Source: Aquisphaera giovannonii
Lineage (GTDB): Bacteria > Planctomycetota > Planctomycetia > Isosphaerales > Isosphaeraceae
NCBI RefSeq assembly: GCF_008087625.1
Contig: NZ_CP042997.1
Location: 10,292,001-10,356,000 of the forward strand
Direction of reading: 5' to 3'
Length of the DNA stretch: 64,000 nt
Below are positions 28,858-39,912 of this stretch, one piece after another. Under the pieces are notes generated by a model that saw only the letters and a list, made by a program, of their open reading frames with translations, did not search any database and was not told the origin of the DNA. The first letter of the stretch is position 1, and each line of letters starts with the position of its first letter. Made by a program: the position numbers and the translations under genes.

Positions 28858-31800
28858 TCAGGAGAGCAGGAACTCCAGGTCCTCGCGGGTGAGGGAACTG
28901 ATCACGCGGTTGTCGGCGTTGAGGATGGCGTCGGCCAGGTCGCGCTTCTTCTGCTGGAGCTCGAGGATCTTCTCCTCGACGGTGTCGCGGCAGATGAGGC
29001 GATAGGCGAAGACGTGCTGGGTCTGGCCGATCCGGTGCGAGCGGTCGATGGCCTGGGCCTCCACCGCGGGGTTCCACCAGGGATCCAGCAGGTAAACATA
29101 TTCCGCGGCCGTGAGGTTCAGGCCGAGGCCGCCGGCCTTGAGGCTGATCAGGAAGATCGGGCAGTCGGGGTCGGTCTGGAACCGCTCCACCTTGGCGGCC
29201 CGGTTGCGGGTCCGGCCGTCCAGGTACTCGTAGGTGAGCTTCTCCTGGTCGAGCCGCTCGCGGACGATGGCCAGGAAGCTGGTGAACTGCGAGAAGACCA
29301 GGACCTTGTGCCCCTCCTCGACGATCTCGGAGATCGACGGGATGAGCATGTCGAGCTTGGCGCTGGGGAAGTCCGATCCGACGCCCTCCCCGTCGGCCTT
29401 GATGAGCGCCGGGTGGCAGGCCGCCTGGCGGAGCCGCAGCAGGGCCTCCAGGACCTCGATCTTGGACCGGTTCAGCTCCGCGTTGTCCTTCTTCAGCAGG
29501 GCGTCGCGGTAGTGGACCCGCAGCTCCTCGTAGGTCCGCCGCTGCTCGGACTCCATGTCGCAGTAGAGGGTCTGCTCGGTCTTGTCCGGCAGGTCCTGGA
29601 CGACCTGGGCCTTGGTCCGCCGGAGGATGAACGGCTTCAGCGCCTTGGCCAGCAGCACGCGGTCGGTCGCCTCCAATGAGGTCCCGGCCCCGGCGCTGGC
29701 GTACTTCTTGAAGACGGTGTCGCTGCCGAGCATGCCCGGGTTGAGGAACTCCATGATCGACCAGAGCTCGCCGATGTGATTCTCGATCGGCGTGCCGCTG
29801 ATCGCCAGCCGGTGCCGGCCCTTGAGCAGGCGGGAGGCCTTGGCGGACTGGCTGTCGGCGTTCTTGATCGCCTGGGCCTCGTCGAGCATGACGTAGTCGA
29901 ACTCGAAGTTCGTCAGCTCGGCGATGTCCGTCCGCAGCGTGCCGTAGGTGGTGACGATCAGGTCGTACACCTCGAACTTCTCGCGGAGGGCGTGGCGGCC
30001 CGGGCCGGTGTAGTCCAGGACCTTCAGCCGCGGGGTGAACTTGGCGGCCTCCTGGAGCCAGTTGAAGACCAGGGACCGGGGGACGACCGCGAGGCTCGGC
30101 CCCTTGGCCTGGCGGCGGTACCGCCGGCGCTGGAGCAGGGCCAGGACCTGGATCGTCTTGCCCAGGCCCATGTCGTCGGCGAGGATGCCGCCGAAGCCGA
30201 ACCGCTGGAGGTAGTCCAGCCAGCCCAGGCCCTCGCGCTGGTACGGCCGGAGCTCGCCGTGGAACCCCGGCGGCGAGTCCAGCGGGACGACGCCCTCGAA
30301 CTGGCGGAGCTGCTCGCGGACCTTGGAGAAGGCCGCGTCCACCTGGATCTCCGGCTGGTTGGCCAGCAGGGCGTCGAGCACGCCGGCCTGGCTGGCGTTG
30401 AACCGCAGGGCGCCGTTCTCCGCGGTGCCGAGGTCCGCCAGCAGGCCGTACTTCTTCAGCCACTCCTCCGGCAGCATGCCCATCGAGCCGTCGCCCAGCT
30501 CGATCATGGACTCGCCCCGCCGCGCGGCGGAGAGCAGCTCCGGCAGGCTGACGCTCTGGCCGCCGTAGTCGATGCCGCCGTCGAGGTCGAACCAGTCGAT
30601 GCCCGTCGAGAGCGCCAGCTTGAACTCGCCGGCCGGGCGGATCAGCTTGCCCTCGGCCTCGACCCGCCAGCCGGCCTGGACCAGGTCCTTGGTGACCTGC
30701 CCCATCCGCTTGGCCGGCAGCTCCAGCGTGCCGGGGTCCAGCCTCGGGTCCTTGGCCTCGCGGAAGCCCATCTCGAAGAGGGTGACGTCCGCGGCGCTCT
30801 CGGTCGCCGGGTGCCGGCGGATCACCAGGTTGTGCTCGGTGGAGACCGCCAGGGGGGTCGTCCGGCCGGCCGGGATGATGGCGCCGTCGTAGTCGAACGC
30901 GAGCTCGCCCAGCAGCTTGTCGGCGGCGAGGCCCCAGTTCTGCCGCGGGGCGCGGAGCGTGAGGTACGGCCGCGGCCTGGCGTCGATCTCCTCGAGCATC
31001 ATCGTCTCGACGAGCTCGGAGGCGGGGACCCTCGTCTCGGCCAGGATCCGGCCGAGCATCAGGTCCTGCTGCGGCTCCACGAAGGTGATCTCCTTCTCGT
31101 AGCGGAGCCGGAGGATCCACGGCATGACGCCCAGGTCGTCGAACCGGGCGGCGCGGCCGACGCCCAGGACGAGCAGGCCGGGGAGCAGCACCAGGGGCTC
31201 GGCCAGGTCCATGCGGGCGTCGCCGCGGCGGAGGCCGCCGCGCCAGGCCCACCGCTTGCCGCCGGCCTCCGTGCGGATGTCCAGGGCGAACCGCCAGGGC
31301 TGGCCGTCGTCCCACCGCATCGTCGGCGGGTCGTCCTCGCCCTCGGTCCGCCGCAGCCGCAGCCGGCCCGACTTGGCGAGCCGCTCCACCAGCCCGGCCT
31401 GGTCCTTGCGGAGGACGAACCGGCGGATGCCCCGCAGGTCGCCGGCCGACCGGCCGGGCCCGGGGCCGGGGCCGGGCCCCGCGGCCGCGCCGGCCCCGGG
31501 CCCGCCGTTGGCCGCGGCGGCGTGGTGGGCGTGGCCCGCCGTGCCGTGGTGGGCCTCGTCCAGCAGCGCCAGCAGCAGGCGGTCCTCCGGGTCGTACTTC
31601 ACGTGGGCGGCGCGGGGGGCGTACCACCAGGGGCGCAGCGGGCCCCAGTCGCCGGTCGGCTTCCGCTGGCGGCGGGCCAGGTCGATGACCACCTGGTTGT
31701 GCGACTGCGTGGCCGCGACGTCCAGGACGTAGACGAGCAGCCGCTTGGCGTTGCGGTTGACGGGCTTGGCGGCCCTCGCCTGGGCCGGCCCGGCGGCCGG

Positions 31801-32439
31801 CCGGACCTTGCCCCGGGCCGGGACCATGCCCATGCCGCCGCCGGTGCCGACGATCGCGCCGGGCCCGCGCCGGGCCCCGCCGGGGCGGTCCTTCGGGCCC
31901 TTGGTCCGCAGCGACCGGCTGGGCGGGGCGGGGAGCCGCTCGCCCCCCATGTGCATGCCCGAGGCCGGCGGCGGCGGCGCCGGGTAGCCGTCGTCGCCGG
32001 GGTAGCCGCCGTCGCCGGGATAGCCGCCGCCGGGGTAGGCCCCGCCGATGAGCAGGGCCCCCACGTCCTCCAGGCCCGTCGGCCCGGCCCCCTCGGGGGC
32101 GGGGGCACCCGCCGGCCGCCGCGGCGGCTCCGCCACCAGGCGGACCGCGAAGCCCGGCGAGGTCTGCAGGAAGCCCCGGGAGTCCGCCAGCAGGAGCGTC
32201 GCCCAGAGGTGCTTGCACGGCTCGCCCTGCGGGCTGAAGTACGGGCACGTGCACGAGGCCAGCAGCCGCGCCCCGCGGAGCCGCGCCCGGACCCGGTACT
32301 TGGCCGTGCCGCGGACCCGCGCCACCACCTCGTTGGGCTTGGCCGACATCAGCGTGACCCGGCCCTTCGAGAAGTAGGACTGGCCCCGCGAGCGCACCGC
32401 CTCGCTGAAATTCCGCGCGACCTTCTGGGCTATACCCAT
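28858..32439 (-). CDS. SWIM zinc finger / SNF2-family helicase
   Basis: A 1193-residue protein. A SWIM zinc finger (CxCxnCxH: C63, C65, C75, H77) is followed by a long low-complexity linker with repeated 'YPGDGG'-type units (about 112-140) and a Gly/Pro run near 330. The SNF2 ATPase core lies in the C-terminal half: Walker A in 'ILADDMGLGKTIQ' (about residue 755), DEAQ box 'MLDEAQAIKN' (about 850), 'AISGTPIENH', and in the second lobe 'KAGGLGLNLTAAEYV' and 'QAIDRSHRIGQ'. Such proteins translocate on duplex DNA and displace bound proteins. The precise role is unknown. It lies downstream of gyrB on the same strand, 175 bases away. Confidence 0.92.
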   Translation of the reverse strand: MGIAQKVARNFSEAVRSRGQSYFSKGRVTLMSAKPNEVVARVRGTAKYRVRARLRGARLLASCTCPYFSPQGEPCKHLWATLLLADSRGFLQTSPGFAVRLVAEPPRRPAGAPAPEGAGPTGLEDVGALLIGGAYPGGGYPGDGGYPGDDGYPAPPPPASGMHMGGERLPAPPSRSLRTKGPKDRPGGARRGPGAIVGTGGGMGMVPARGKVRPAAGPAQARAAKPVNRNAKRLLVYVLDVAATQSHNQVVIDLARRQRKPTGDWGPLRPWWYAPRAAHVKYDPEDRLLLALLDEAHHGTAGHAHHAAAANGGPGAGAAAGPGPGPGPGRSAGDLRGIRRFVLRKDQAGLVERLAKSGRLRLRRTEGEDDPPTMRWDDGQPWRFALDIRTEAGGKRWAWRGGLRRGDARMDLAEPLVLLPGLLVLGVGRAARFDDLGVMPWILRLRYEKEITFVEPQQDLMLGRILAETRVPASELVETMMLEEIDARPRPYLTLRAPRQNWGLAADKLLGELAFDYDGAIIPAGRTTPLAVSTEHNLVIRRHPATESAADVTLFEMGFREAKDPRLDPGTLELPAKRMGQVTKDLVQAGWRVEAEGKLIRPAGEFKLALSTGIDWFDLDGGIDYGGQSVSLPELLSAARRGESMIELGDGSMGMLPEEWLKKYGLLADLGTAENGALRFNASQAGVLDALLANQPEIQVDAAFSKVREQLRQFEGVVPLDSPPGFHGELRPYQREGLGWLDYLQRFGFGGILADDMGLGKTIQVLALLQRRRYRRQAKGPSLAVVPRSLVFNWLQEAAKFTPRLKVLDYTGPGRHALREKFEVYDLIVTTYGTLRTDIAELTNFEFDYVMLDEAQAIKNADSQSAKASRLLKGRHRLAISGTPIENHIGELWSIMEFLNPGMLGSDTVFKKYASAGAGTSLEATDRVLLAKALKPFILRRTKAQVVQDLPDKTEQTLYCDMESEQRRTYEELRVHYRDALLKKDNAELNRSKIEVLEALLRLRQAACHPALIKADGEGVGSDFPSAKLDMLIPSISEIVEEGHKVLVFSQFTSFLAIVRERLDQEKLTYEYLDGRTRNRAAKVERFQTDPDCPIFLISLKAGGLGLNLTAAEYVYLLDPWWNPAVEAQAIDRSHRIGQTQHVFAYRLICRDTVEEKILELQQKKRDLADAILNADNRVISSLTREDLEFLLS

Positions 32440-32614: not shown

Positions 32615-35371
<2,757 letters not shown>

Positions 35372-35375
35372 TCAC

Positions 35376-35834
35376 TCAACCGCGGTCATCCCGCTTTTTC
35401 TTGCTTGCCCGCGGGGCCCGCTTCATGCCCCGCCCCGGTGCCCTCGGCGAGGGCGGGGCCGCCGCGGGCCTGGGCCCCGGCCCGGACGCAGGCCCCGGCT
35501 CGTCGTCCGGCTCCCGCACGAGGCCGACCCGGAAGCGGATGTCGTGGATCGTGGCCCCGGTGACCCCGGCCCGCAGGGCGGCCAGCAGCTCGCCCTTCCG
35601 GAACGCCGCAAGCTCCTCCAGGAGCGTGGGATGCGACACCGTCACGTTGAGGACGCCGCGGCGTACGTCGCCCACCCGCGTCTGCCGGCACTGGGGCTCT
35701 CCGACCGCTCTGTTCCAGACTTCCTCCAACTCGCCTAGGGCCTGCAACCTCCCGTAACCCCTGGCGGCGAACAGCTCCCCGAGGACCTCGGAGAGGGGGC
35801 GCGGGTGGCGGCGGCCGGGGTTCGGGTTCGCCAT
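35376..35834 (-). CDS. DUF721 / DciA-like protein
   Basis: A 152-residue protein. Residues about 12-105 match the DUF721 pattern: 'PLSEVLGELFAARG', 'LEEVWNRAVGE', 'TRVGDVRRGVLNVTVSHPTLLEELAAFRKGELLAAL', 'IHDIRFRVG'. The C-terminal 45 residues are Pro/Arg/Lys-rich and disordered. DciA proteins load the replicative helicase in bacteria that lack DnaC/DnaI, which fits its place between dnaN and gyrB. The DciA role is inferred from family and neighbourhood. Confidence 0.85.
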   Translation of the reverse strand: MANPNPGRRHPRPLSEVLGELFAARGYGRLQALGELEEVWNRAVGEPQCRQTRVGDVRRGVLNVTVSHPTLLEELAAFRKGELLAALRAGVTGATIHDIRFRVGLVREPDDEPGPASGPGPRPAAAPPSPRAPGRGMKRAPRASKKKRDDRG

Positions 35835-36056: not shown

Positions 36057-37178
36057 TCAGCGGTCGCGGGTCAGGGGCATGACCACGTAGGTGTACTTGT
36101 CCTCGGTCTTGAAGACGGCGGCGTTCTTGGAGTCGATCAGCTCGGCGGTCAGCTGGGTCGCGTCGTCCAGGGTCTTGAGCGCGTCGACCAGGTAGCGGGG
36201 ATCGAAGGTGATCTCCACGGCCTTCCCCTCGTACTCGATGGGGAGCTCGACGTTCGAGCTGCCCACGTCGGTGGCCTGGCTGGCCAGCTTGAGGACGCCG
36301 GGGCCGAACCGGAAGTCCACGCCGCGGCTGTCGTTGCTGGTGACGATGGAGGCCTGCTCGACGGCCAGGCGGAGCGGCCCGGCCTGGAGCGGGATGCGGA
36401 CCTCCACGTTGGCCGGGAAGACGTCCTGGTAGCGGGGGAATCGGCCCTCGACGAGCCTCGTGTAGATCACCGCGTCCTCCGTCCGGACGAGCGCCGCGGT
36501 CCCCGCCTGGATGGCCAGGTGGACCTGCATGCCGTCATCCGCGAGGTTCCGCTCGATGAGCTTGAGGGCCTTGACCGGGATCACGGGGGTGCCGCCCGGC
36601 GTCGGCGGGGCGTTCTCGGCCTCGGCCGGGGCCTGCATGCGTGCGAGGCGTCGGCCGTCGGTGCCCACCATGGCGATCGACTCGGGGGACAGCTCCACGA
36701 GGACGCCGCCCAGGGCGTAGCGGGCGTTCTCCATCAGGTCGGTGGCGAAGCTCGTGCGGCGGATCAGCTTCTTCAGGCTGCCCGCCGGCACGACGTGGTA
36801 GCTGGAGGCGGCGAAGTCGGGGACCTCGGGGAAGAGGCCCGGGTCCTGGGCCGGGAGGGTGAACTCGGCGCGGGCCCCGCGGACGATCAGGCGGTCGGCG
36901 TCGGCGACCAGCTCGAGCTCCTCGTCGCCGCTGGTCCGGAGGATCGAGCCCATCTGGGACGTCGGCAGGATCGCCGACCCGGGCTCCTCCGCGCGGACGC
37001 CCAGCACCCGGTGGCGGATCCCGACCTCCAGGTCGGTCCCCATCAGCACCGAGCCCTCCTCCTCATCCACGATCAGCTTGACGTCCTGGAGGATCGGCTT
37101 GGGACTCCGCGCCGGCACGACGCCGCTGACCATGTTGAAGGCGGCAAGCAGGCTGTCGCGGTTGCAGAAGGCCCTCAT
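36057..37178 (-). CDS. dnaN: DNA polymerase III beta subunit (sliding clamp)
   Basis: A 373-residue protein starting MRAFCNRDSLLAAFNMVSGV. The ATG at 37178 has AAGGA seven bases upstream and matches the normal family start; an ATG 18 bases further up is less likely. Three clamp domains are recognisable: 'RSPKPILQDVKL' (domain I), 'LIRRTSFATDLMENARYALGGVLVEL' and 'MVGTDGRRLA' (domain II), and 'LVEGRFPRYQDVFP' through 'KYTYVVMPL' (domain III). It forms the ring that tethers DNA polymerase to the template. It heads the dnaN / DUF721 / gyrB group next to the candidate origin. Confidence 0.97.
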   Translation of the reverse strand: MRAFCNRDSLLAAFNMVSGVVPARSPKPILQDVKLIVDEEEGSVLMGTDLEVGIRHRVLGVRAEEPGSAILPTSQMGSILRTSGDEELELVADADRLIVRGARAEFTLPAQDPGLFPEVPDFAASSYHVVPAGSLKKLIRRTSFATDLMENARYALGGVLVELSPESIAMVGTDGRRLARMQAPAEAENAPPTPGGTPVIPVKALKLIERNLADDGMQVHLAIQAGTAALVRTEDAVIYTRLVEGRFPRYQDVFPANVEVRIPLQAGPLRLAVEQASIVTSNDSRGVDFRFGPGVLKLASQATDVGSSNVELPIEYEGKAVEITFDPRYLVDALKTLDDATQLTAELIDSKNAAVFKTEDKYTYVVMPLTRDR

Positions 37179-37343
37179 GCGCTGTCCTTCGAGCATGGGA
37201 TGATGGAGGTTGGGGCGAACTCGGAAGCCCCGCCCTTCGACTCGACCCGACGCCGGGCGGGTCGCCCGGCCGTCGCACATGGTCACGACCCCTCGGGGGC
37301 GGACGGCCCGTGGCCCCGCCTGCGGCCGGAGTGATGCCCCTGC

Positions 37344-37349
37344 ATTATA
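37344..37349 (-). promoter_or_regulatory. Consensus -10 box (TATAAT) upstream of dnaN
   Basis: On the minus strand TATAAT lies about 165 bases before the dnaN start. It is the only perfect consensus -10 noticed. No good -35 is seen at 17 bases. Confidence 0.5.
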
Positions 37350-37629
37350 CCCGACGCCCGCATCGCCCGGGGAGATGCCTGCCAACCCGACGGGCCTGGC
37401 AGGCCGGCGTGGGCTCGATTCGCCTCGACTCGGCTTGTCGCGCGGAGGGCCGGACCCGAGTGCGGGAGTGGGTCGTCGGCCCGATCACCTGTCTTCACGT
37501 CGAACGAAGCGGCGGGATGAACCGGTCGGGGGCAATCTCTCGCCGTCCAGGCCCGGCCCCGGCCTCCTGTTCTCTGATTCACGATAAGCGAACTTCACCG
37601 TCGCATCAACAGTAAGGCGGGGACGTCGC

Positions 37630-37638
37630 CGTGGATAA
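37630..37638 (-). promoter_or_regulatory. DnaA box
   Basis: CGTGGATAA, the reverse complement of TTATCCACG; eight of nine bases match the consensus TTATCCACA. Confidence 0.55.
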
Positions 37639-37831
37639 CCCCGGAAGATCCCGGCCAAGGTAATGATAGCAAAGCAGTTAGCCGAAGACAACACCCCCGC
37701 CCCCGCGGGGGAAAACTTGTCGGCAAGGCCGTTCACGGGCCCGGCATCGCCCGCCCGGACCGCCACCCACGCCGGGACGCCGCGACACCCCTCGTCGACG
37801 GACGGCCCGCCCCGCACACCCCGTCGACACG

Positions 37832-37840
37832 TTATCCACG
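37832..37840 (+). promoter_or_regulatory. DnaA box
   Basis: TTATCCACG; eight of nine bases match the consensus. It is followed by a C-rich/T-rich stretch that partly mirrors sequence around 37700. Confidence 0.55.
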
Positions 37841-37928
37841 AGTTTTCCCCCGCCGGCCGTCGATCGATGCGGCCCCGGCCGGCCCGCCGGCGCGTGGGAT
37901 GATGAGGGCCAAGAACCCGGAATTTGGT

Positions 37929-38147
37929 GAGCCACGGATTCACACAGATAAACACAGATAAGACGGAGATGGGGGCGGGCAGGGGATGAGTCATCGCCCT
38001 GGCCGTGTTGCTGTCACCAAAACGATTTATGGTGTCATCTGCCGAATTGGCAGGGCTACGCGCCGCGATTACGCGAGCTACAAAAATTTAGATTGTTTTT
38101 TTCCTGCCTATCTTCTATCGGTGTGAATCTGTGTGAATCCGTGGCTC
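37929..38147. repeat. Element with 21-bp perfect terminal inverted repeats
   Basis: GAGCCACGGATTCACACAGA (37929 onwards) returns as its exact reverse complement at 38127-38147, 177 bases away. The arms extend imperfectly inward. The arm sequence belongs to a type seen as non-coding repeats in many environmental bacteria. No protein is encoded. It overlaps the AT-rich part of the candidate origin. Confidence 0.75.
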
Positions 38148-38277
38148 AAATCCTCCCCATCCGCGGCCCTCGCCGCCCGCGACCCCTCGCCCCGCCGTCC
38201 ATGGCCTTGACCGTCCCCCCGGTTTGCTCGATGATCCGGCTTTCCGGTCCGATCCTCCGAAGCAAGGATGCGTGGAG

Positions 38278-39912
38278 ATGCGATCCGACGCGACGACGCG
38301 GGGCCGGCTCGGCGGCTGGGGCCTCGCGTGGCTGGCGACGTTGACGGCCCTGGCCGTCGGCCCGGGGCTGGGGAGCTCCTCGCGGCTGACCTACCACGAG
38401 GCGTTCGTGGCGCAGGGGGCGCGGGAGATCCTCGACTCGGGGAGCTGGTGGGAGCCGAGGATCGGCGGCCTCCCCTGGCTGGAGAAGCCCCCCCTGCCCT
38501 TCTGGCTCGTCGCGGCGGCCGGGGCCTGCCGCGGCGAAGTCGACGCAACCGTGGCGCGGCTGCCGTCCGCCGTCGCGGCGTTCGGCCTGGTCCTGGGCGT
38601 CGCCCTGCTGGCGAGCCGCCGATACGGGCGCACCGTCGGCCTCCTCGCCGGATCCATCCAGGCGACCACCGCCTGGACCGTCCTCCGCGCCCGCCTCGCC
38701 GAGGCCGACCTGCTCCTGGCCGCCCTGGTCACCTGGAGCCTGCTGGCCTTTGATGGCATGCGTGACGGAGATGGCAGCGGGGAGGAGATCGAAGGAGGCG
38801 GGAACTTATCCCGTTTACGGGATTGGCGATTGGCCTTCTTTGGCTTTCTCGCCATGACGGCGCTGGTGAAGGGGCCGGGGTTCGGGGCGGCGCTGGTGCT
38901 CTCGGCCGCGGCGGGGGTGCTCGCCTGGGACCGGGACCGGCGGGCGGCGGGCCGGCTGCGGTCGCGGCCCGGGTGGATCGTCGCGGCGGCGGTCGCGGCG
39001 GCGTGGCCCCTGGCGATGGTCGCCCGGCACGGGCCGGGGGTGGCGTGGCTCTGGATCCTGCACGTCGCCGGCCGGTTCGGCGGGGGCGGCGCCCACGGGC
39101 CGTTCGCCGGGGAGTCCTGGCGGGACTACGCGCTGAACGTGCTGGCGCAGGCGTTGCCGTGGACGCCCCTGGCGGCGATCGGCGCCTGGAGGTCGCTCGG
39201 CCGGGCCCTGCGGGGCGACCGCGGGGACCGGCTGCTCTGGTGCTGGGCGGCGCTGCCGCTCGGCCTGGTCTCGGTCGCCAGCGCCCGCAACGCGCACTAC
39301 GCGATCCACGCCATGGTCCCGTGGTCGGTCTGGTCGGCGTGCGGCCTGCTGCGGGTGGCGGGCCGCCTGGCGGATCGCGGCTGGCCCCGGCCGCGGCTGG
39401 TGCGGGCGGCGGCCCTCGGCCTGCCGGGCCTGGCGGTGTCGTGGGGGCTGGGCTTCTGGCTGCTCGGCCCGTGGCTGGACCGCCGCGGCGCGGAGTGGGC
39501 CTTCTACGAGTCCGCCGGCCGGGCCGTCGGCGCGTCAGAGCCGGTCGCCTTCCTCTACGACGACTGGGACCGGGACCCCTACCCCACGCCCTTCGGCCCG
39601 ATCCCGCACGACCTGGCCGTCCGCCTCTTCTACCTGCGCCGCCCGGCGACCTGGCACTTCGACCCCGCCGGCCTGGCGGAGGTCGTCGATCGCCCCGCGT
39701 CCCCCGGCGCCGGCGAACAACCCTCCGCCGTCCTGATCGCCCGCGATCGCGACCTCCCCGCGCTCCGGGCCCTCGGCCGCGTCGAGGTCCTCGAGCGCGA
39801 CGCCGGCGTCCGCTGGGACCGCACCTACCTCCTCGCCCGCCTCCGCCCCATCGCCGAGCCTCCCGCCATCCCCGCCCTCGGCGCCGCGGGGGCGGACTCT
39901 GTGCGGCGTTGA
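38278..39912 (+). CDS. Integral membrane glycosyltransferase, GT39/ArnT-like
   Basis: A 544-residue protein. The ATG at 38278 follows GGAG and begins the basic MRSDATTRGR stretch before the first helix. About ten to twelve hydrophobic segments are present. The first periplasmic loop, 'LTYHEAFVAQGAREIL' then 'GSWWEPRIGGLPWLEKPPLPFW', matches the signature loop of polyprenyl-phosphate-sugar transferases (ArnT/PMT/GT39), with HE in place of the usual acidic pair. It should transfer a sugar from a lipid carrier to an envelope acceptor; donor and acceptor are unknown. The C-terminus 'AGVRWDRTYLLARL' is found again as a remnant 2 kb downstream. Confidence 0.85.
   Translation: MRSDATTRGRLGGWGLAWLATLTALAVGPGLGSSSRLTYHEAFVAQGAREILDSGSWWEPRIGGLPWLEKPPLPFWLVAAAGACRGEVDATVARLPSAVAAFGLVLGVALLASRRYGRTVGLLAGSIQATTAWTVLRARLAEADLLLAALVTWSLLAFDGMRDGDGSGEEIEGGGNLSRLRDWRLAFFGFLAMTALVKGPGFGAALVLSAAAGVLAWDRDRRAAGRLRSRPGWIVAAAVAAAWPLAMVARHGPGVAWLWILHVAGRFGGGGAHGPFAGESWRDYALNVLAQALPWTPLAAIGAWRSLGRALRGDRGDRLLWCWAALPLGLVSVASARNAHYAIHAMVPWSVWSACGLLRVAGRLADRGWPRPRLVRAAALGLPGLAVSWGLGFWLLGPWLDRRGAEWAFYESAGRAVGASEPVAFLYDDWDRDPYPTPFGPIPHDLAVRLFYLRRPATWHFDPAGLAEVVDRPASPGAGEQPSAVLIARDRDLPALRALGRVEVLERDAGVRWDRTYLLARLRPIAEPPAIPALGAAGADSVRR

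Follow-up and report, generated by a model that had tools for sequence, protein, structure and literature searches.

A chromosomal replication origin that lies beside dnaN and away from dnaA is a kind already known. In Synechococcus elongatus PCC 7942, as described in the account we draw on (PMC7198777), oriC is located near dnaN, dnaA is found elsewhere on the chromosome, and many relatives display irregular GC skew. A second point of reference is the basal unwinding system, for which DnaA boxes in tandem, separated by no more than 3 bp, are described (PMC8287927) and which in Bacillus subtilis oriC contains co-oriented tandem sites, the second of them degenerate (PMC6669920, PMC10721633, PMC8287927). 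A third is provided by the chlamydial proteins DnaA1 and DnaA3, which place more than one DnaA protein in a lineage of the PVC superphylum; the same source states that DnaA3 is confined to Chlamydiae (PMC4989314). In the literature searched, with DoriC and subscription papers outside its reach, we found no description of an origin from the family Isosphaeraceae. The locus considered here, from Aquisphaera giovannonii of that family, resembles the Synechococcus oriC in having dnaN adjacent and dnaA remote, and in the irregularity of its skew. Unlike the Synechococcus origin, it has the dnaN promoter set within the array, between tandem box elements, and its genome encodes a DnaA paralogue.

The genome comprises 10,526,296 bases in three contigs, of which C1 (10,370,956 bases) contains the 64,000-nt stretch that was analysed as a whole (C1:10292001-10356000, hereafter the window). 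A preliminary description of this DNA had pointed to a 1.1-kb gap with divergent neighbours next to dnaN-dciA-gyrB, and had suggested a replication origin there on account of two DnaA-box-like 9-mers on opposite strands. The gap indeed extends between the start of dnaN at 37178 on the minus strand and that of a divergent PMT_2-type gene at 38278 on the plus strand, and Pfam assignments confirm the identities of dnaN, dciA and gyrB, all on the minus strand (Table 1). Adjacency of dciA and gyrB is described as a common arrangement, Planctomycetes included (PMC5109545). A SNF2-type helicase gene (28858-32439; NCBIfam matches below cut-offs) lies directly downstream of gyrB on the same strand. The two 9-mers are exact copies of TTATCCACG, at 37630-37638 on the minus strand and 37832-37840 on the plus strand, inverted and 202 bp apart. 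We think it likely, with good confidence, that the gap is the chromosomal origin (oriC) and that it is linked to dnaN-dciA-gyrB and not to dnaA; the inverted pair kept throughout the family, its uniqueness in the genome and local skew minima in two genera all support the origin first suggested for this site.

Table 1. Features of the candidate origin and its surroundings (window coordinates).
Feature	Position	Strand	Basis
gyrB	32615..35266	-	Pfam
dciA, helicase operator	35376..35834	-	PF05258, 43.8 bits
dnaN (P0001), DNA polymerase III beta clamp	36057..37178	-	Pfam
Proposed minimal oriC module, comprising three DnaA-site elements, the dnaN promoter and an AT-richer stretch	37563..37851		family-wide elements and spacing; local skew minimum
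Candidate unwinding region, AT-richer, directly following B2	37563..37608		GC dip over 25 genomes
Core module, profile R1 (154 positions)	37587..37737	-	C1:10329587-10329737, E 7.4e-27; sole genome match; sequence belongs to training alignment
DnaA box B2, TTATCCACG	37630..37638	-	0-3 mismatches to consensus in 25/25 aligned genomes
Sigma-70-like dnaN promoter: TTGTCT, 17 nt, TATCAT preceded by TG	37663..37691	-	conserved in the 25-genome alignment
Composite element B1: degenerate box TTGCCGACA, 2 nt, TTTTCCCCC	37707..37726	-	alignment
Composite element B3, inverted: TTATCCACG, 2 nt, TTTTCCCCC	37832..37851	+	-200 to -206 from B2
Dispersed inverted repeat, AT-rich interior, outside proposed origin	37928..38148		arms recur in C1
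Divergent flanking gene, PMT_2-type glycosyltransferase	38278..39912	+	Pfam, weak, 28.6 bits

Whether such boxes could have arisen by chance in an ordinary intergenic gap needs to be considered, since with one mismatch allowed the window holds 7 boxes against 5.25 expected, which is chance level. The exact 9-mer TTATCCACR, however, has only 18 copies in the whole 10.5 Mb (25 for the reversed-pattern control), and the arrangement of these sites stands out. The inverted pair is the sole close pair among the 18 genome sites, the next closest being about 2.7-2.8 kb apart, and by our own estimate about 0.006 pairs within 202 bp would be expected by chance from 18 sites. Among the matches listed, the sole close pair likewise adjoins dnaN in the relatives G024 (18 sites), G025 (11) and G028 (10), and a single exact box lies beside dnaN in G032; none of the matches listed for G003, G010 and G011 is an exact box beside dnaN. 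Further, an inverted composite consisting of TTATCNACA, 2 nt and TTTTCCCC recurs in 23 of 24 genomes, G020 being the exception, at -200 to -206 relative to B2 and with no more than 5 of its 17 positions mismatched (G001 was left out of this count, its contig being too short); 0% of the control windows reached this score. With three or fewer mismatches, the composite pattern has three matches in the whole genome, two of which are B3 and B1. The exact-pair uniqueness, the relatives' pairs and the conserved spacing thus place the box cluster at the gap above chance, and we reject the chance explanation, to which we assign a practically negligible probability, on the unique exact pair and the constant spacing of the inverted sites, seen in 23 of 24 genomes.

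Because this inverted spacing is fixed family-wide, the two 9-mers of the preliminary description can be recognized as B2 and B3 of a larger array with B1 between them: taking B2 as position 0, B1 lies near -88 and the inverted B3 at about -203, and the dnaN promoter lies between B1 and B2. This layout recurs in many genera. In an alignment of 25 genomes the order is a box-like TTNTCNACA, TTTTCCCCC, GTTGTG, 17 nt, TATCAT and then the box, 24-26 nt past the -10 element; the TTTTCCCCC part is absent from G020 and the six g16 genomes. G003, G004, G014 and G022, without a promoter match within two mismatches, were left out of this alignment, and G011, G030, G031 and G034-G037 were examined separately. 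The sequence-only profile R1, built on the core module of the 25 genomes, gives a full-length match in 26 of the 39 family genomes, a single one in each and always next to dnaN; the training set accounts for 25 of them, and G014 lies outside it. R1 had no match in six family genomes (G003, G004, G011, G022, G030 and G031), and three others could not be judged and were also left out of the upstream comparisons, G012 because its contig begins within dnaN, and G005 and G021 because no dnaN was found. Single composite sites (three mismatches) are present 0.3-0.5 kb upstream of dnaN in G003, G004 and G011, where the pattern also matches elsewhere; in G004 the second half of the composite reads TTATCAAC. 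Outside the family, 5 of 212 class genomes gave weak matches only (E 0.001-0.005).

The conserved sigma-70-like promoter between B1 and B2, with B2 placed 24-26 nt after its -10 element and recovered also by a separate promoter scan of the window, invites a different reading: the array would be an operon promoter, regulated by DnaA and driving dnaN-dciA-gyrB, and replication would start at some other place. We regard this reading as improbable. A fixed-spacing array reaching 200 bp upstream would be large for one promoter, and local skew minima adjoin the array in two genera. The four g19 genomes (G034-G037) also speak against it. Their dnaN-proximal R1 match is limited to the promoter part, without boxes beside dnaN, and weak box-type elements are found 4-8 kb beyond the dnaN end (G034:C14:35336, G036:C8:274149, G037:C69:34016 and G035:C1:8476632), seen with the 3-mismatch pattern in three of the four genomes and as a weak R1 match (E 0.015) in G035. 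Since the g19 promoter stays in place with box-type elements, weak as they are, located elsewhere, boxes and promoter can separate, and the origin may have shifted to the other side of the operon in g19. The promoter part itself is present in three copies upstream of dnaN in G034 (C14:24654, 25546 and 26437, about 890 bp apart) and in two copies about 1.15 kb apart in G035.

An AT-rich block in the gap had also been counted toward the origin. Its low GC is real, the block at about 38071-38110 being among the lowest in the window, but its role in the origin did not hold up: the block is flanked by the two arms of an inverted repeat (37928-37960 and 38116-38148), outside the conserved module, and we reject it as an unwinding element. 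The repeat arms (TGAGCCACGGATTCACACAGAT...) recur at several other places in C1, pairs included, with unrelated interiors. As the block is part of a dispersed repeat, the AT-richer stretch on the dnaN side of the 37630 box becomes the better unwinding candidate. Here the AT dip next to the boxes is family-wide; mean GC over 25 genomes falls to 0.48-0.49 in 30-bp windows at +30 and +45 from B2, and is about 0.68-0.70 further on. The comparison with Bacillus subtilis oriC is partial. B1 and B3 follow the tandem-box gap rule, with a box, 2 nt and a degenerate second site, here TTTTCCCCC. Unlike at the Bacillus origin, no DnaA-trio run was found after B2, and in the 25 genomes the region after B2 showed no enrichment of trios (mean longest run 1.36 against 1.17 in shuffled sequence); we therefore do not file the array as a member of the basal unwinding system.

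These elements allow us to consider how initiation might proceed. DnaA-ATP would bind B2 together with the tandem sites of B1 and B3, and looped DNA might gather the three elements, which are held at near-constant spacing. Opening would then take place where the sequence is AT-richer, to the dnaN side of B2, with helicase loading perhaps aided by DciA. Transcription from the dnaN promoter within the array probably ties initiation to the supply of clamp, DciA and gyrase. The candidate spans 290 bp and is retained by most of the family, which makes it possible to test how budding planctomycetes control their replication, and the candidate module offers a starting point for origin plasmids.

The main dnaA gene (PF00308, 160 bits) is at C1:10,180,514, 149 kb from the gap, which agrees with the earlier remark that dnaA is not nearby and that the origin appears uncoupled from it. 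By printed coordinates, dnaN and dnaA are non-adjacent in all nine relatives that have both on one contig, with a smallest distance of 69 kb (G010); the distances of G028 and G035 are those along the linear contig, and a tenth relative, G007, has the two genes on different contigs and lies outside this count. The placement, dnaN-linked and dnaA-unlinked, is thus of the cyanobacterial type.

GC skew gives a sharp picture locally and an irregular one over the whole chromosome. Over a contiguous 391 kb around the gap, the raw and the gene-orientation-corrected cumulative curves both reach their minimum at window position about 35,780, inside dciA and about 1.4 kb from the gap. In a second genus (G033), a contiguous 400 kb followed in 2-kb steps, and containing both dnaA (4,832,182) and dnaN (5,168,677-5,169,795), has its raw and corrected minima at 5,170,001, just upstream of dnaN and away from dnaA. 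Out to 0.5 Mb on either side of the gap, corrected skew is +0.020 on the right (15 stretches) and -0.024 on the left (14 stretches; Mann-Whitney p 0.0004). When centres are compared on an even grid, the gap has the largest skew step of 78 at ±0.42 Mb and of 80 at ±0.55 Mb, rankings that involve just two to three stretches per side; with ±1 Mb it drops to 8th place and with ±2 Mb to 23rd, both out of 80.

The preliminary description had named the whole-genome skew curve as a check on the origin; on an even grid this curve proves irregular and fails to pick out the site. A two-arm model fitted to that grid (78 stretches, 130 kb apart) does best with the origin at 1.96-2.09 Mb and the terminus T at 7.29-7.42 Mb; the gap ranks sixth, and equally good fits arise in 26 of 500 permutations. 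An earlier whole-chromosome two-arm fit from uneven sampling ranked the gap first, with 4 of 300 permutations equally good, and was set aside, because the even grid showed that it depended on the denser sampling around the gap. A cross-validated octamer test, applied to the uneven samples without gene-orientation correction, favoured positions other than the gap. Octamers such as TGGATTGA and ATTGAAAC are strongly one-sided in the sampled stretches and probably belong to one CRISPR-like repeat array; the first k-mer list was apparently dominated by what looks like one such array. The irregular whole-chromosome skew and the grid fit lend themselves to the view that the origin lies elsewhere, near dnaA or at about 2.0 Mb where the grid fit falls, or that there are several origins, as in some cyanobacteria, and a coarse sample of 20 stretches from G011, with two similar skew minima, one near dnaA and one near dnaN, may point the same way. 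Against this view, which we consider very unlikely, no exact box is present between 8.43 and 10.33 Mb and hence none near dnaA at 10.18 Mb, and the G033 minimum lies beside dnaN and not at dnaA. Our own reading of the chromosome is that its skew is irregular and rearranged with a sharp local step at the origin; the case for an origin at the gap is weakened by the whole-chromosome curve, not removed.

Lastly, we need to pay attention to the DnaA paralogue. This protein of 378 aa (C1:1-1134) matches Bac_DnaA (PF00308) and Bac_DnaA_C (PF08299) over cut-off and has no DnaA_N; with the AAA+ and box-binding domains both present, it appears as an intact second DnaA, although its score against TIGR00362 (152.7 bits) is far below the 343.9 cut-off. 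The likeness to the chlamydial DnaA1 and DnaA3 is that of a PVC lineage having more than one DnaA protein, with no orthology implied. With matches from about 140 bits upward counted, 28 of 39 family genomes have the paralogue. The GRNHSTV motif of the main DnaA, which in the E. coli DnaA-box structure reads the CCACA half of the box, is absent from the paralogue and replaced by GRDPATV here and GRDSATV in G033.

The presence of the paralogue varies together with one half of the composite element. Of 36 genomes, 26 have the paralogue, and 20 of these carry the box-plus-TTTTCCCC composite upstream of dnaN, against 1 of the 10 that lack it (Fisher p 0.0004, uncorrected for relatedness); within the 26 R1-module genomes, the TTTTCCCC composite is found in 18/18 and 1/8, respectively. 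The exceptions are G030, G031 and the four g19 genomes, with the paralogue and without the composite, and G002, a draft of 600 contigs, with the composite and without a detected paralogue; draft genomes may miss the gene by accident. The seventh base of the second site of B3, a contrast chosen after the sequences were seen, is C in 17/17 genomes with the paralogue and A in 7/8 without, and the B3 of G020 is weak. On a dnaN tree, taken without its support values, the paralogue is lost on G004, G022, G020, g16 and perhaps G002; the first four of these lack the composite, and their sisters keep both composite and paralogue. G004 and G022 have a module that is degenerate throughout, which leaves just g16 and G020 as clean loss cases.

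One possible scenario, which we put forward tentatively and hold to be doubtful at present, is a two-initiator origin in which DnaA would occupy TTATCNACA and the paralogue, with no domain I and with the altered recognition helix of the two genomes above (GRD[P/S]ATV), would occupy TTTTCCCC 2 nt further on. It might also be, and we hold this part of the scenario to be equally doubtful, that where the paralogue was lost the second half-site went back to a DnaA-box-like sequence. If true, the two-initiator reading would describe a heterotypic bacterial initiation complex, and the matching loss of the paralogue and one half-site provides a concrete and cheap test of it. If C1 is circular, about 42 kb separate the paralogue gene from dnaN when counted over the record join, and where both genes are on one contig they are 3-68 kb apart in 9 of 11 genomes and nearly 2 Mb apart in G035 and G011. 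The C1 record seems to have been rotated to begin at the paralogue, and some caution is called for, in that records rotated to a dnaA-like gene would not begin at the proposed origin.
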